Source: Actinobacteria bacterium HGW-Actinobacteria-7 (GTDB lineage Bacteria > Actinomycetota > Coriobacteriia > Anaerosomatales > PHET01). Taken from it: a stretch of DNA of 64,000 bases. Location: positions 62,001 through 126,000 of the forward strand of contig PHET01000003.1 of NCBI GenBank assembly GCA_002841275.1, given 5' to 3'. The translations under genes were made by a program, and so were the position numbers. Below are positions 35,522 through 45,562 of the stretch, one piece after another; position 1 is the first letter of the stretch; every line of letters begins with the position of its first letter. Below the pieces are notes generated by a model, which made no database searches, was not told where the DNA came from, and saw only the letters and a program-made list of their open reading frames with translations.

Positions 35522-36238
35522 CTACGCCAGCCAGATCAGGTACGCCGCTGCCACAATCATGCCTGCACCGCCCAGCTTAGTGAGCGCTCCTGTGACCCGG
35601 GACAGCCGGCGCATGAGCACCAGTGAGCCCGAGGCGACCCCCAGCAGCATCAGGGGCACGCCTTTGCCCAGGCCGTAGACGAACAGTAGTAGCGCGCCCA
35701 GCGCGACCGAGCCGCGCATCGCTGCGATTGTCGCAATCGCCGCGAGAATCGGCGTTGAGCACGGCGATGCCACAGCACCGAACAGCATTCCAAGAAGCAG
35801 CGCTCCTAGAAATCCCGTGCGCTTCGAGCGGACCGCGGGGAAGAAGCGGTTGAGCGCGTCGAAGTGCAGGTCGACCACGCCCAACAGGTGAAGTCCCAGG
35901 AGCGTACAGACCGCTGCTGCTACCCAGTAACCAGCCGACGTCATGAGCAGGGCATGCCCCAGCGCCCCCGCGACAGCGCCAATCGCGGCGAACACCAGAC
36001 TCATGCCCAGCACGAACGTCGCGGACAGCGCGAGGCCGCGGCCCCAAGCGGCGCGCGCGGACAGGTCGGGTGTCTCGGCGACCTGACCGGTGACGTAGCC
36101 GAAGATGGCGGGGAGCATCGGCAGTACACACGGGCCGAATCCCGCAACAAGCCCGCCGGCGAACGCGACCCCGAAGGCGGCGACACCGGTGATGGTGCCC
36201 TCACTCAGCTGGGCGGCGAACGACTCGATCCAGCTCAT
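35522..36238 (-). CDS. ccdA: CcdA/DsbD-like transmembrane thiol-disulfide transporter
   Basis: The 238-residue protein has six transmembrane helices with the two redox cysteines of the CcdA core: FGPCVLPMLP in helix 1 and ASPCSTPILA in helix 4. It carries reducing equivalents from cytoplasmic thioredoxin across the membrane to an extracytoplasmic thioredoxin partner. That partner is likely the adjacent Cys-x-x-Cys protein, whose stop overlaps this start by four bases. It is the last gene of the operon headed by the arsenite-type ArsR. No cytochrome c biogenesis genes adjoin, so the role in that process is doubtful. Confidence 0.92.
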   Translation of the reverse strand: MSWIESFAAQLSEGTITGVAAFGVAFAGGLVAGFGPCVLPMLPAIFGYVTGQVAETPDLSARAAWGRGLALSATFVLGMSLVFAAIGAVAGALGHALLMTSAGYWVAAAVCTLLGLHLLGVVDLHFDALNRFFPAVRSKRTGFLGALLLGMLFGAVASPCSTPILAAIATIAAMRGSVALGALLLFVYGLGKGVPLMLLGVASGSLVLMRRLSRVTGALTKLGGAGMIVAAAYLIWLA

Positions 36239-36717
36239 CGGGCGGTGAGGCTGTCGAGGTAGGTGCGCAGCCCGGGTTCGTCGAGCGGCCCCACGTACGA
36301 GTCGACTATCTTGCCCTTCCCGTCGATGAAGAACGAGGTGGGGATGTACTGGAACTCGAACCGGTCCGCCAGGCTGCGCGCGCCAGGGTCATCGGTGATG
36401 GCGTTCACGAACGTGAGACGGTCCGCATATTCCGGTAGTACGCCGTCGACCACCCTTGAGATGTCGATGCATGACTGGCAAGTGGTTGAGTGGAACAGCA
36501 CGTAGACCGGCTTACCCGCCCGGAGCGCCGCATCGTACTCGGCGCTCGCATCCCCTCGGGCGGCCGTGGGGGTGAGGCTCGGCTCGGCGGGCGTACTCAC
36601 GGAGTTGGCCGCTGGAGCGACCGCTGTCGGCTTGATTGCCGCCCCGCCGAGCTTCATGCCCAGCACCACCGCGAACACCACGGCGACGCCCAGCAGAATC
36701 TTCGCTTTGCCGCTCAT
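36235..36717 (-). CDS. Membrane-anchored thioredoxin-like protein
   Basis: The 160-residue protein has an N-terminal helix (about 6-26), a Pro/Ala/Thr-rich linker, and a thioredoxin domain with active site HSTTCQSC followed by a cis-Pro in YIPTSFF. The fold faces outside. It overlaps both neighbours by four bases (ArsP-like permease upstream, CcdA downstream), so it is probably kept reduced by CcdA and acts on the permease substrate or on nearby thiols. Family: thioredoxin-like/TlpA-related; the exact target is unknown. Confidence 0.9.
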   Translation of the reverse strand: MSGKAKILLGVAVVFAVVLGMKLGGAAIKPTAVAPAANSVSTPAEPSLTPTAARGDASAEYDAALRAGKPVYVLFHSTTCQSCIDISRVVDGVLPEYADRLTFVNAITDDPGARSLADRFEFQYIPTSFFIDGKGKIVDSYVGPLDEPGLRTYLDSLTAR

Positions 36718-37679
36718 CGCAGCACCCAGTTGAACAGGTAGCCGATGGCGGTGATGGTGACGAAGTTGATACTGATGAAGATCGCGATCAGCTTGGGCTT
36801 GATCACTTTGCGCAGGATGATGAACTCAGGTACCGAGAGCGCCACGACCGCCATCATGAAGGCGAGCACGGTGCCCATCGCCACACCCTTCTCGGTGAGC
36901 ACGCTCACGAGCGGGATGATGCCGGCGGCGTTGCTATAGAGCGGGATGCCCATGAGCACGGCCACGGGCACGGCCAGCGGGTTGCCCGGCCCCGCCCACT
37001 TGGCGAGCGCGTCGGTGGGGATGTAGCCGTGCATCACGGCACCCAGTGCGATGCCGCCCACTACGTACGGCCAGACTTTGCCCACGATGTCGGCCACGTA
37101 GCCGCGCGCGTACGCGAATCGCTGCGCCCATGTGAGCTCGACCGCATCGGACTCGCCCACTTTGATCTGGCGCACGTAGTCTTCGACTTGGTCCTCGAGA
37201 TCGAGCTTGCCGATGACGATGCCACCAATGATGGCGACGGTCAGCCCGCTCACCAGATACAGCCCGGCGACCTTCCAGCCGAACAGCCCCAGAAGCAGTA
37301 CGAGGGCGACCTCGTTGACCATGGGACTCGCGATGAGAAACGAGAACGTCACGCCCAGCGGAACGCCGCTCTCGACGAAACCGATGAACAACGGCACGGC
37401 CGAGCAGGAGCAGAATGGCGTGACGACGCCCAGCAACGCCGCAAGCACGTTGCCGCCGTAGAGTCGCGAATGCGAGAGGAAGCCGCGGGTCTTCTCGGGA
37501 GGGAAGAACGAGCGGATCACCGCGACCGCGAAGACGATGACCACAAGCATCGCGAGGATCTTGGGCACGTCGTAGAGGAAGAAGTCGACCGATGCGCCCA
37601 GTTTGGATGCGGGGTCGAGGCCGAGCAGGTCATAGGTCAGTCGGTCTGCGACCCACTGGAACGGATAGAAGATGTCCAC
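36714..37679 (-). CDS. DUF318/ArsP-like (SO_0444-type) permease
   Basis: The 321-residue protein has about eight transmembrane helices in two halves. The first half carries the hallmark VTPFCSCSAVPLFIGF, with Cys pair, as in ArsP and related permeases. ArsP exports trivalent organoarsenicals, and other members have been linked to copper or zinc. The second half contains GIPLYSNAAGIIPL, the matching internal repeat. It sits between a small redox-disulfide protein and a thioredoxin in an ArsR-headed operon, consistent with handling a thiol-reactive metalloid. The substrate is inferred only from context. Confidence 0.88.
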   Translation of the reverse strand: MDIFYPFQWVADRLTYDLLGLDPASKLGASVDFFLYDVPKILAMLVVIVFAVAVIRSFFPPEKTRGFLSHSRLYGGNVLAALLGVVTPFCSCSAVPLFIGFVESGVPLGVTFSFLIASPMVNEVALVLLLGLFGWKVAGLYLVSGLTVAIIGGIVIGKLDLEDQVEDYVRQIKVGESDAVELTWAQRFAYARGYVADIVGKVWPYVVGGIALGAVMHGYIPTDALAKWAGPGNPLAVPVAVLMGIPLYSNAAGIIPLVSVLTEKGVAMGTVLAFMMAVVALSVPEFIILRKVIKPKLIAIFISINFVTITAIGYLFNWVLR

Positions 37680-37685
37680 GATGGT

Positions 37686-37925
37686 CTACTGGTCCCGGGT
37701 GAGTATGGTGACGACTTCACCGTAGGTGGGGACGCGTCCAGCGAGGCGGAGTTGCTCATCGACCACGAGGGCCGGAGTGGACATGACGCCGTAGCCCATG
37801 ATCTCGCCCATGTCGGTGACTTTCACGACCTGCGCGTCGAGCACGAGGTCTGCCACGACCTGCTTGGCGACCTGCTCGAGCTTCTGGCAGTTCGCGCAAC
37901 CGGAACCCAGTACCTTGATGATCAT
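37686..37925 (-). CDS. Redox-active disulfide protein 2-like small thioredoxin
   Basis: The 79-residue protein begins MIIKVLGSGCANCQK, with Cys-Ala-Asn-Cys active site in the first loop, and has the thioredoxin-like STPALVVDE cis-Pro segment. This is the cytosolic redox-active disulfide/thioredoxin family often found with ArsP-type permeases and ArsR. It is six bases from the permease start and 21 bases after the arsR stop. It may shuttle the metalloid or its electrons to the permease, which is inference. Confidence 0.9.
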   Translation of the reverse strand: MIIKVLGSGCANCQKLEQVAKQVVADLVLDAQVVKVTDMGEIMGYGVMSTPALVVDEQLRLAGRVPTYGEVVTILTRDQ

Positions 37926-37946
37926 CGTGCGTCCTTTCGCTTGAGG

Positions 37947-38279
37947 TCAGAGCCGATCGAGTTCGTCCGATACACGACGCAGCTCGTCGCGGCGTAGCGT
38001 GTAATACATCCAGAGCCCGTCCTTGCGTGCGTCGATCAGTCCTGCGTCGCGCAGCACATTCATGTGGTGTGAGATGGTCGAGGGCGCGAGGTCGAGCCGC
38101 TCGGCGAGTTTGCACGCACACACCTCTGCGGGGCCGCAACACGTCTTGCCGGACTGTGGCGTCGAGTCGCCTAGGATGCGCAGGATCTCCCGGCGGTGGC
38201 CCGATGCGAGCGCCTTGAACGCAGCGTCGAGCCCCCGGTCTGCGGCAACCGATGCGACTGGCCCGTTAGTGTTTGGCAT
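37947..38279 (-). CDS. arsR: ArsR-family metalloid-responsive repressor
   Basis: ATG 38279 (GGGAG six bases upstream) gives 110 residues. The winged helix-turn-helix is clear (CKLAERLDLAPSTISHHMNVLRDAGLI). The helix just before it carries EVCACKL, which aligns with the arsenite-sensing ELCVCDL motif of ArsR, and an extra Cys-Cys pair lies upstream (GKTCCGPA), giving four Cys for As(III)/Sb(III)-type binding. It is the first gene of the redox/permease operon and is itself preceded by a palindromic operator that recurs before an MFS exporter gene. Repression relieved by metalloid is inferred from the family. Confidence 0.92.
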   Translation of the reverse strand: MPNTNGPVASVAADRGLDAAFKALASGHRREILRILGDSTPQSGKTCCGPAEVCACKLAERLDLAPSTISHHMNVLRDAGLIDARKDGLWMYYTLRRDELRRVSDELDRL

Positions 38280-38296
38280 GTGACACTCCCGCATAG

Positions 38297-38321
38297 TAGT
38301 TCGATGATTATCGAAGTATAG
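38297..38321 (-). promoter_or_regulatory. ArsR operator overlapping the arsR -10 box
   Basis: The palindrome TTCGAT-gatt-ATCGAA lies 18-42 bases before the arsR start. On the transcribed strand a -10 hexamer TATACT (38315-38320 in + coordinates) overlaps its edge, the usual geometry for autorepression. The 25-bp block matches the copy at 43947-43971 at 22 positions by my alignment. No good -35 hexamer was found at the right spacing. Confidence 0.7.
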
Positions 38322-40086: not shown

Positions 40087-40422
40087 ATGACGGACGATCG
40101 AACAGGCGACCAGTTGCTCCAGATGCTGAGCGCACTTGCGAACCCTCATCGGCTGCGGATTCTTGCGGCCCTGAGAGCTCGCGAGAGCTATGTCAGCGAG
40201 TTGGCTCGGGAGCTTGGGATCGGACGTCCGCTTCTCCACATGCACCTGCAAGTACTGGAGAAAGCGGGACTCGTGGTTGGACGCCACGAGATCTCGGAAG
40301 ACGGAAAGGCACTTCGCTTCTTCAGCGTGGCGGACTTCGACGAGCACCTGACGCCAGAGCGCATCACGGACGCGACGAAGACTCTCAGCGCAGAGAGCGA
40401 AACACAAGGAAGGAGTAAGTAA
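40087..40422 (+). CDS. ArsR-like winged-helix repressor without metal cysteines
   Basis: The 111-residue protein has an ArsR-type winged helix: LANPHRLRILAAL, YVSELARELGIGRPLLHMHLQVLEKAGLV and a wing GRHEISEDGKALRFF. It lacks Cys entirely, so a soft-metal site of the arsenite kind is absent; the sensed signal is unknown. It starts a tightly packed operon of at least five genes whose other members are small or medium membrane proteins. Its stop overlaps the next ATG (TAATG). A palindrome over the promoter is its likely target. Confidence 0.88.
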   Translation: MTDDRTGDQLLQMLSALANPHRLRILAALRARESYVSELARELGIGRPLLHMHLQVLEKAGLVVGRHEISEDGKALRFFSVADFDEHLTPERITDATKTLSAESETQGRSK

Positions 40423-43905: not shown

Positions 43906-43935
43906 TTGACTGTGGATACCCGTAGGGGTAATCAT
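43906..43935 (+). promoter_or_regulatory. Probable promoter of the MFS gene
   Basis: TTGACT (43906-43911) is followed after 17 bases by TAATCAT (from 43929), a fair -10 match. The ArsR-type palindrome begins 12 bases further on, at the expected start of transcription, fitting repression of this promoter. Confidence 0.5.
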
Positions 43936-43946
43936 GGGCTTCCAAC

Positions 43947-43971
43947 TAGTTCGACGATTTTCGAAGTAAAG
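43947..43971 (+). promoter_or_regulatory. Second copy of the ArsR-type operator
   Basis: The block TAGTTCGACGATTTTCGAAG and its flank match the operator before arsR, with core TTCGA-cgattt-TCGAA. It ends ten bases before the MFS start codon and overlaps AAAGGAAG, so binding would block transcription. The match is by eye; no scan of the genome was possible. Confidence 0.7.
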
Positions 43972-43980
43972 GAAGCCCGC

Positions 43981-45183
43981 ATGCCTGCTCATTCGCGTCG
44001 TCTTGTGCTCCTGCTCGGTTTCGCCGGCTTCATCGTGATGGCGGACAACTGGGTCGTGTCACCGATTCTTCCGGCAATCTCGAAGAGTGTGGGCGTGACT
44101 CCCGAAGCGGCTGGGCTGCTGATTGCGGCGTACATGCTTCCCTTTGGCGTGTTCCAGCTCGTGTTCGGCCCGCTGGCCGACAGGTTTGGGAAGAGCCGGG
44201 TCATCCTGTCCACATTCACGGCTTTTGCGGTCGCCACCGCGCTGTGCGCGCTGGGAAACAGTCTGACCGGCATCGCCGCGTTTCGGGCGCTCACCGGGCT
44301 GTTCGCCGCGGCCACTATGCCAATCTCCCTGGCCCTGATCGCCGACACGGTGCCCATGGAACAGCGCCAGCAGGCCGTGGGCTCGTTCATGGGGATCGCG
44401 TTTCTCGGTCAAGCACTGTCCATGGGCATTGGAGGCGCCATCGCCTACTACTTCGACTGGCGGGGAGTGTTCATCGTCTACGCGCTGGCCGCTGTGGTGA
44501 TTGCGGTCGCGCTGTGGCGCGGGTTGCGCGGCATGGACATCGAACCGCCGCAGCGAGATCGGCACGAGTCGGTATTCAAGCCGTATCTTGCGCTCTTGGG
44601 ACACGGGCCAAGCCTGCGTACGTATCTGATCATCCTGGTCGAAGGGGCGTTCCTTCTTGGGAGCTTCAGCTATCTGGGCGCTCTGCTGGCGCACCGCTTC
44701 AGCCTGTCCTTTCTCGCGATAGGGGGCGTTCTGACCGCCTTTGGAGTTGCGGCGATCATTGCGGGCAGGACCAGTTCGAAACTCGCCGGGGCATGGGGCC
44801 GTACCCGGACGATCGCCGCCGGTATCGCTGTGGCCGCATTCGCCGATGGGCTGGTGTTCGCGGGCGGGCACAGCCTGATTCTCACCGGCATCGGTGTGTT
44901 CGCGCTCGGCTTCGGCTTCATGACCGCGCACTCGACACTGATTACGGTGGCAACCGAGTTCGCAGCTCGCTCAAGAGGCACTGCCATGTCGCTGGTGACA
45001 TTCGCGTTCATGGTGGGGGGCGCCATCGGCACGCAGGCGGGTGGGCGCATCGCACAAGCGACAGCGCTGACCTCGTTGTACGGCATATACGCGACGGGGC
45101 TGCTCGCCCTCGCCCTGGTCGCTCTGTTCGCAGTCGGTTCGGTGGGTGCACCTAAGATAGCGGCGCTGGATGGTGCCCGCTAG
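43981..45183 (+). CDS. MFS efflux transporter
   Basis: ATG 43981 (AAAGGAAG upstream) gives 400 residues with 12 transmembrane helices. The N-terminal loop motif A (GPLADRFGKSRVI) and an antiporter-like segment with Gly/Pro in helix 5 mark a drug:H+ antiporter-like MFS member of the DHA1/Bcr type. The ArsR-type operator before it and the thioredoxin-like gene after it suggest export of a thiol-reactive or metalloid compound, as for the arsenical MFS pumps ArsJ and ArsK, but the sequence alone does not show substrate. Confidence 0.88.
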   Translation: MPAHSRRLVLLLGFAGFIVMADNWVVSPILPAISKSVGVTPEAAGLLIAAYMLPFGVFQLVFGPLADRFGKSRVILSTFTAFAVATALCALGNSLTGIAAFRALTGLFAAATMPISLALIADTVPMEQRQQAVGSFMGIAFLGQALSMGIGGAIAYYFDWRGVFIVYALAAVVIAVALWRGLRGMDIEPPQRDRHESVFKPYLALLGHGPSLRTYLIILVEGAFLLGSFSYLGALLAHRFSLSFLAIGGVLTAFGVAAIIAGRTSSKLAGAWGRTRTIAAGIAVAAFADGLVFAGGHSLILTGIGVFALGFGFMTAHSTLITVATEFAARSRGTAMSLVTFAFMVGGAIGTQAGGRIAQATALTSLYGIYATGLLALALVALFAVGSVGAPKIAALDGAR

Positions 45184-45202
45184 TCAGCAGGGAGCTGAGC
45201 GC

Positions 45203-45562
45203 ATGCCCGAGGTGGTCGTGAAGATCGTGTCCGAGAGTTGCGGTTGAGGCGGCGGCACCGCCGACTGCGATGAGCTCGAGTTGGCGCTCGGAGTGATCAC
45301 CGAGGGCGCCGCATGTGAACTCCCGCTGGCATGGCGCCTCCAGGTCTTGGAGGCACAGCTGAAAGACAGGGTCGGCTACGAGATCCTCTTCGAGGAGGCC
45401 GACCTCTGGGGCCTGGTCGGCGCCGAGCGTGAGGCGGCGATCGACGCCCTCGCTGCAGGACACGAACTTCCCTTCGTGCTGGTCGCCGATCATGTGGTCG
45501 CCACAGGGCAGCTGGACGCCGAGAAGATCGAAGTGGCACTCGGGCGGTTGGCGCCGAGCTAG
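45203..45562 (+). CDS. Candidate thioredoxin-like selenoprotein read through an in-frame TGA
   Basis: AGGGAG lies nine bases before ATG 45203. The frame reads MPEVVVKIVSESCG, then TGA (45245-45247, codon 15), then GGGTADCDELEL and continues without stop to TAG 45562, 119 residues if TGA is selenocysteine. The C-terminus is thioredoxin-like: LPFVLVADHVVATGQLDAEKIEVALGRL, an end found in thioredoxin-like metal or redox proteins. The TGA follows strand 1, in the loop where this fold has its redox Cys, and next to Cys13. Alternative: pseudogene or sequencing error. A SECIS hairpin could not be proved by eye. It follows the MFS stop by 19 bases. Confidence 0.65.

Follow-up and report, generated by a model that had tools for sequence, protein, structure and literature searches.

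RESULTS

A small gene interrupted by one in-frame TGA

The question raised by this locus is whether the in-frame TGA at codon 15 of a small thioredoxin-like gene encodes selenocysteine (Sec) and, if so, in which process the resulting protein might take part. The open reading frame (ORF) was reproduced in the window, by which we mean the whole stretch of 64,000 nucleotides that was analysed, with the coordinates given in the initial annotation: ATG at 45203, 14 codons, TGA, 104 sense codons and TAG at 45560-45562. The AGGGAG motif described upstream of the ATG was likewise present, at a distance of eight bases and not nine. The gene has the following features.

45203..45562, plus strand: selenoprotein gene, 119 residues, with Sec15 in the motif C13-G-U15, Cys38, and Pro90 in the cis-Pro position
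45189..45194, plus strand: AGGGAG, probable ribosome-binding site, eight bases 5' of the ATG
45245..45247, plus strand: Sec-coding TGA, codon 15, invariant in 31/31 full-length homologues
45317..45319, plus strand: region of Cys codon 38, TGT within GCA-TGT-GAA; relatives have their second Sec-UGA here

The translation reads MPEVVVKIVSESCGUGGGTADCDELELALGVITEGAACELPLAWRLQVLEAQLKDRVGYEILFEEADLWGLVGAEREAAIDALAAGHELPFVLVADHVVATGQLDAEKIEVALGRLAPS. Under a dinucleotide model, an open frame of 104 codons has a chance of about 8% in the GC-rich DNA of the window, and because the length of an open frame is by itself weak evidence, the case rests on comparison with relatives.

Conservation of the TGA among relatives

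Genomes from the order (69), the class (398) and the phylum (396) were searched for homologues with read-through of stops. The family was present in 30 of the 69 genomes of the order (Anaerosomatales), which consists mostly of underground bacteria, and these searches yielded no convincing relative elsewhere among the 398 class or 396 phylum genomes. Relatives aligned on both sides of the TGA with 27 to 56% identity, and UGA stood at the codon-15 site in all 31 full-length genes (28 rows of an alignment and three further genes). The Sec position and Pro90 were the only invariant columns of the 28-row alignment; Cys13 was nearly invariant and differed in L034 and L040. The TGA-interrupted frame rises above chance because it is conserved on both sides of an invariant TGA, and a sequencing error is untenable, since the same TGA recurs in some 30 genomes. 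Of the homologues with Cys or Sec at codon 15 that the initial annotation had looked to for a check, those with UGA exist, whereas Cys was not found at this site in any homologue from the 69 order, 398 class and 396 phylum genomes; Cys homologues usually accompany bacterial selenoproteins but are not a requirement.

These data also bear on the reading of the TGA as a true stop that separates a short peptide from an ORF of its own (TTG at 45281, 93 codons) in a decaying or split gene. Although that alternative TTG start is present and TGA ends other genes of the window normally, this explanation is highly improbable: codons 1-14 encode a conserved strand that runs into CG-U, the TGA is never another stop or a sense codon in the 31 genes, the sequence 3' of it is conserved, and a downstream start would drop the first strand together with the conserved motif. 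Reassignment of UGA through a change of code was rejected, as TGA is the ordinary stop of the arsR, arsP, trx and histidine kinase genes of the window.

Selenocysteine machinery

All four genes named beforehand as a check, selA, selB, selC and selD, are encoded in the window genome. The tRNA-Sec (69 bits) has the anticodon UCA, and the next four tRNA-like matches below it were Ser and Leu tRNAs. Matches to selA and selD reached 596 and 372 bits, and selD contains an in-frame TGA of its own in an N-terminal motif that we read as AGUAAKWG. The selB gene was recovered as two pieces at contig ends, and its main piece lies with selD and selA within 5 kb at one contig end. In G000, an assembly break inside selB involves contigs C34 and C2, with selC on the second contig. 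We considered whether a tRNA-Sec bearing a Cys anticodon might insert Sec at codon 38 and rejected this, as the match above the cut-off has the anticodon UCA.

Among relatives, selA was found in 50 of 61. Five family-positive drafts (G005, G053, G055, G043 and G021) had no selA match; despite this, G005 contained tRNA-Sec and selB, and G053, G055 and G043 contained selD with an in-frame UGA, while no sel gene was found in the draft genome G021. In these drafts the missing genes were likely lost in assembly, given that the window genome has its sel cluster (selA, selD and most of selB) at the end of one contig. With an invariant UGA in homologues and the sel machinery in the genome, the UGA of the window ORF is almost certainly read as Sec, and the proposal made for the TGA at 45245 is supported. 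Annotation pipelines will truncate such genes at the UGA.

A second Sec site

A second UGA, about 23 codons downstream of the first, was found in 21 of the 31 genes. Cys occupied this site in eight genes (the window gene, L022-L025, and L036, L043 and L044 of the CSUSGGG subtype), and the residue was neither Sec nor Cys in two (L034 and L042). In the phylogenetic tree the window gene grouped with L018 (support 91/87), and because this neighbour is a double-Sec gene, Cys38 (TGT) of the window gene would most simply be a replacement of Sec.

A scan for the DNA pattern of two UGA codons returned 43 stretches, nine of which matched the family profile; all nine came from actinobacterial records, most from Coriobacteriia or Anaerosomatales, and one was labelled Aeromicrobium yet belonged to the same order by genome search. 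No relative was found on plasmids, or on viral contigs with a scan pattern that included the second Sec codon.

Several variants were noted besides. G032 has three copies of the family, including L079 (G032:C92) and G032:C84, and two of the three belong to a divergent CSUSG subtype, in which the loop is longer and the second site is Cys. In several genes of the set L037, L038, L039, L041, L060, L062 and L072, the C-terminus reads ...C or CC before a TGA that may be an ordinary stop or encode a C-terminal Sec tail. A weak partial profile match at G056:C137:46393-46542 (minus strand) contains two TGA codons inside a long open frame.

SECIS-like hairpins

Bacterial SECIS elements have been modelled with a loop of 3-9 nt, G in the first two loop positions, a stem of 4-16 bp, a spacing of 16-37 nt for most and an energy of <= -7.5 kcal/mol (PMC13188914). 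Two hairpins downstream of the TGA are of interest here.

45277..45290, plus strand: candidate SECIS 1, CGAGT-TGGC-GCTCG, with G in loop position 2
45336..45354, plus strand: SECIS-like hairpin that follows the second Sec-UGA in relatives and is retained here (GCCTCCA-GGTCT-TGGAGGC; energy -11.4 kcal/mol)

The first corresponds to the CGAG/CTCG stem with loop TTGGCG that had been seen after the TGA, and was located at 45277-45290. Its apical loop begins 34 nt 3' of the TGA, and loop, stem, G and spacing lie within the model, whereas its energy is -5.7 kcal/mol (bulged extension included) against the limit of -7.5 kcal/mol. In four close relatives, 21 of 25 pairs were maintained, compared with 13.2 in synonymous shuffles, a comparison that is optimistic, since it was made on related sequences with a structure derived from the window itself. 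This stem, for which the initial annotation made no SECIS claim, is a plausible SECIS. The hairpins after the first UGA of several relatives agree with the model in every respect, energy included. The first-UGA stems differ between subtypes but are conserved within each (CTCGGACGGTCTGTCCGAG, CTCGGGCGGTCCGCTCGAG and GACCCCGGTTCGGAGGTC), with pairing above that in synonymous shuffles.

The hairpin at 45336-45354 is stronger than candidate SECIS 1 and lies about 95 bases 3' of the TGA at 45245; its equivalents after the second UGA of relatives are also strong. It is kept in the five genes of the clade that have a Cys codon at the second site (the window gene and L022-L025), and compensatory exchanges (G-C to C-G and C-G to U-A) were observed among relatives. 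In the Cys38 genes, the hairpin may be either a relic or an element that serves the first UGA. The idea of a long-range or shared SECIS acting from about 95 nt comes from the persistence of the hairpin, with compensatory changes, after the second UGA had become Cys; we regard it as unlikely, and if true, it would exceed the known bacterial spacing (16-37 nt for most).

Gene neighbourhood and a shared putative operator

The following features of the window bear on the context of the gene.

43981..45183, plus strand: MFS transporter gene, 19-nt gap to the selenoprotein gene, probably in the same operon
37947..38294, minus strand: arsR-family regulator
37686..37925, minus strand: Thioredoxin_3 (Trx_3) protein (CxxC)
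36714..37679, minus strand: ArsP-type permease; the PF03773 match was made on the cluster member from G050
36235..36717, minus strand: membrane-anchored thioredoxin-like protein
35522..36238, minus strand: ccdA/DsbD_TM-type electron carrier, named by similarity to a G021 protein matched to PF02683
43948..43968, plus strand: putative ArsR-type operator, AGTTCGACGATTTTCGAAGTA, upstream of the MFS-selenoprotein operon
38298..38318, minus strand: same putative operator, upstream of the arsR operon

In many relatives, the selenoprotein gene directly follows ccdA in an arsR-Trx_3-arsP-Trx-ccdA operon, and in others a DUF2703 domain is fused in front of it. The window has this operon (35522-38294, minus strand) without the selenoprotein gene, at a distance of 7 kb from it. 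An Acr3/SBF-type transporter gene was found in 10 of 21 loci, and in G047 and G014 relatives of the window MFS gene are likewise close to ars genes. Proteins with DUF2703 have been described as having a thioredoxin fold, and a Rhodococcus ars cluster encodes one of them (PMC6514093). In L088, L089, L095 and L098, a DUF2703-like ORF continues in frame into the selenoprotein domain; such genes have probably been annotated, wrongly, as truncated DUF2703 proteins, since ordinary rules end an ORF at a Sec-UGA. A second ArsR-type winged-helix gene is located between the two operons of the window (40087-40422, plus strand).

The initial annotation had referred to a shared operator, and the same palindrome indeed precedes the arsR operon and the MFS-selenoprotein operon. 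In the window, AGTTCGAYGATTWTCGAAGTA occurs only at 38298-38318 and 43948-43968, and the palindrome TTCGA-N6-TCGAA only at two sites, beside arsR and before the MFS gene, versus 0.05 expected. Over 21 loci (353 kb), 19 such sites were counted, versus 0.1 expected from base composition, and most were located 29-46 nt upstream of the starts of arsR, MFS, Trx_3 or DUF2703-selenoprotein genes. As judged from sequence, this distribution is the strongest functional evidence and would place the selenoprotein gene in an ArsR-type regulon, to which it very probably belongs; ArsR is predicted to bind the shared putative operator. A further palindrome, ATACCCGTAGGGGTAAT (43916-43932, plus strand), which occurs once in the window, lies 5' of the MFS gene between -35-like and -10-like boxes and resembles the operator of a metal sensor.

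Operon context and shared operator much reinforce the earlier hint at a metalloid role. ArsR-family repressors are able to sense other signals and the window gene has left the arsP operon, as might be expected of a selenoprotein that merely travels with ars genes and has a part in general thiol or peroxide homeostasis. Such a protein without a metalloid role is improbable, however: the operator is common to the arsR operon despite the separation of 7 kb, and the same palindrome lies upstream of the selenoprotein gene or its operon in several relatives.

Predicted fold and proposed function

Two AlphaFold2 models (pLDDT 78 and 81) had the order strand-loop-helix-strand-helix-strand-strand-helix, in agreement with the thioredoxin-like fold suggested initially. 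In these models, Sec15 follows strand 1 by a few residues, and helix 1 and strand 3 are immediately preceded by residue 38 and Pro90, respectively; the active loop (residues 14-37) was modelled below pLDDT 50. The top Foldseek match of both models was 1xg8 (SA0789, of the YuzD family; probability 0.99, TM 0.51-0.53), and ArsD entries ranked below it in both lists; the best E value was 0.018, with no match below 0.001. Sequence searches of Pfam, NCBIfam and PDB gave nothing above cut-off, and the window protein had no match in NCBIfam release 20. A match to MnmH was weak (E 0.003, six members), and in profile comparisons kinship to Thioredoxin_3 and to DUF2703 was not significant.

We propose that the gene encodes an ArsR-controlled selenoprotein of thioredoxin-like fold that probably acts in metalloid handling; the arsenic chemistry is what we infer. 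The protein would be small, probably cytoplasmic and made by UGA recoding via the SelA, SelB, SelC and SelD of the host. A trivalent metalloid would release ArsR from the shared operator, whereupon the arsR-Trx_3-arsP-Trx-ccdA operon would be induced together with the MFS-selenoprotein operon. The loop between strand 1 and helix 1, with Cys13, Sec15 and Cys38 (a second Sec in the majority of relatives), might then grip a soft metalloid, with arsenite or an organoarsenical as candidate ligand, which would be handed to an efflux permease as by ArsD. Cys13, Sec15 and residue 38 could form a soft-metalloid binding or redox centre.

In our analysis, binding and hand-off, as opposed to redox catalysis, may be given roughly an even chance; we lean slightly towards an ArsD-like hand-off because the likely ligand residues are in the loop between strand 1 and helix 1 and because the regulon contains efflux permeases. 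A redox function coupled to thioredoxin is nearly as probable. The same selenoprotein might be a catalyst in which Cys13-Gly-Sec15 cycles between selenol/thiol and selenenylsulfide, and an arsenical or a partner protein might be reduced with electrons from the thioredoxins of the operon. The predicted thioredoxin-like fold with Pro90 at the cis-Pro position, the C-x-U motif and the presence of two thioredoxins and of CcdA, an electron carrier, as operon partners are consistent with this, as is the expectation that most selenoproteins of unknown function are redox proteins (PMC13188914). Cys13 is not strictly conserved, however (L034 and L040 differ), and the second Sec or Cys, about 23 residues on, forms no CxxC, so that a chelating loop fits equally well.

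Comparison with known systems

ArsD takes up arsenite and delivers it to the efflux ATPase ArsA; the residues with which it binds metal are located in the loop that connects strand 1 with helix 1. The window family resembles ArsD (PF06953; PDB 3kgk, 3mwh and 3ktb) in its predicted thioredoxin-like fold and ars context, and may do so in the placing of ligand candidates between strand 1 and helix 1: both models show this order of elements, with the loop itself below pLDDT 50. It differs in having C-x-Sec with Sec or Cys38, whereas ArsD has a vicinal Cys pair and a third Cys; there was no match to PF06953 (one of 28 members at E 0.67). YuzD/DUF1462 (PF07315; PDB 1xg8) was the best fold match for both models, again with no significant match to its profile (one of 28 members at E 0.087); YuzD has CxxC and no Sec.

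Sec.1 of Brachyspira, a thioredoxin-like selenoprotein named 'redox-active disulfide protein 2' (PF13192) (PMC5330540), is listed as a small thioredoxin-like selenoprotein with a CxU motif (PMC13188914). The window family is likewise small, predicted to be thioredoxin-like and has a CxU motif, but the Sec of Brachyspira Sec.1 is in an N-terminal extension before the PF13192 domain; no member of the window family matched PF13192, and a profile comparison with PF13192 genes of the loci was not significant. The catalogued prokaryotic selenoprotein families number 119, a minority of which have two or three Sec (PMC13188914 Table 1). Like them, the window family has Sec within a motif of redox type; none of the 119, compared by name, domain and context, has this architecture or context (PMC13188914); many are listed in that catalogue under NCBIfam numbers, and NCBIfam release 20 was searched. 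On sequence comparison, we regard these genes as a new, thioredoxin-like family of selenoproteins that is absent from the libraries and catalogues searched, Cys homologues having been sought within Actinomycetota.

Discovery by way of Cys homologues is a limit stated by the authors of deep-Sep (PMC12013277). The present family often has two Sec and escapes the usual discovery because it is apparently Sec-only at its main site; it would thus be missed wherever discovery is based on Cys homologues. Its tie to an ArsR-type operator would make the use of selenium here a testable case of selenium being spent on metalloid defence.
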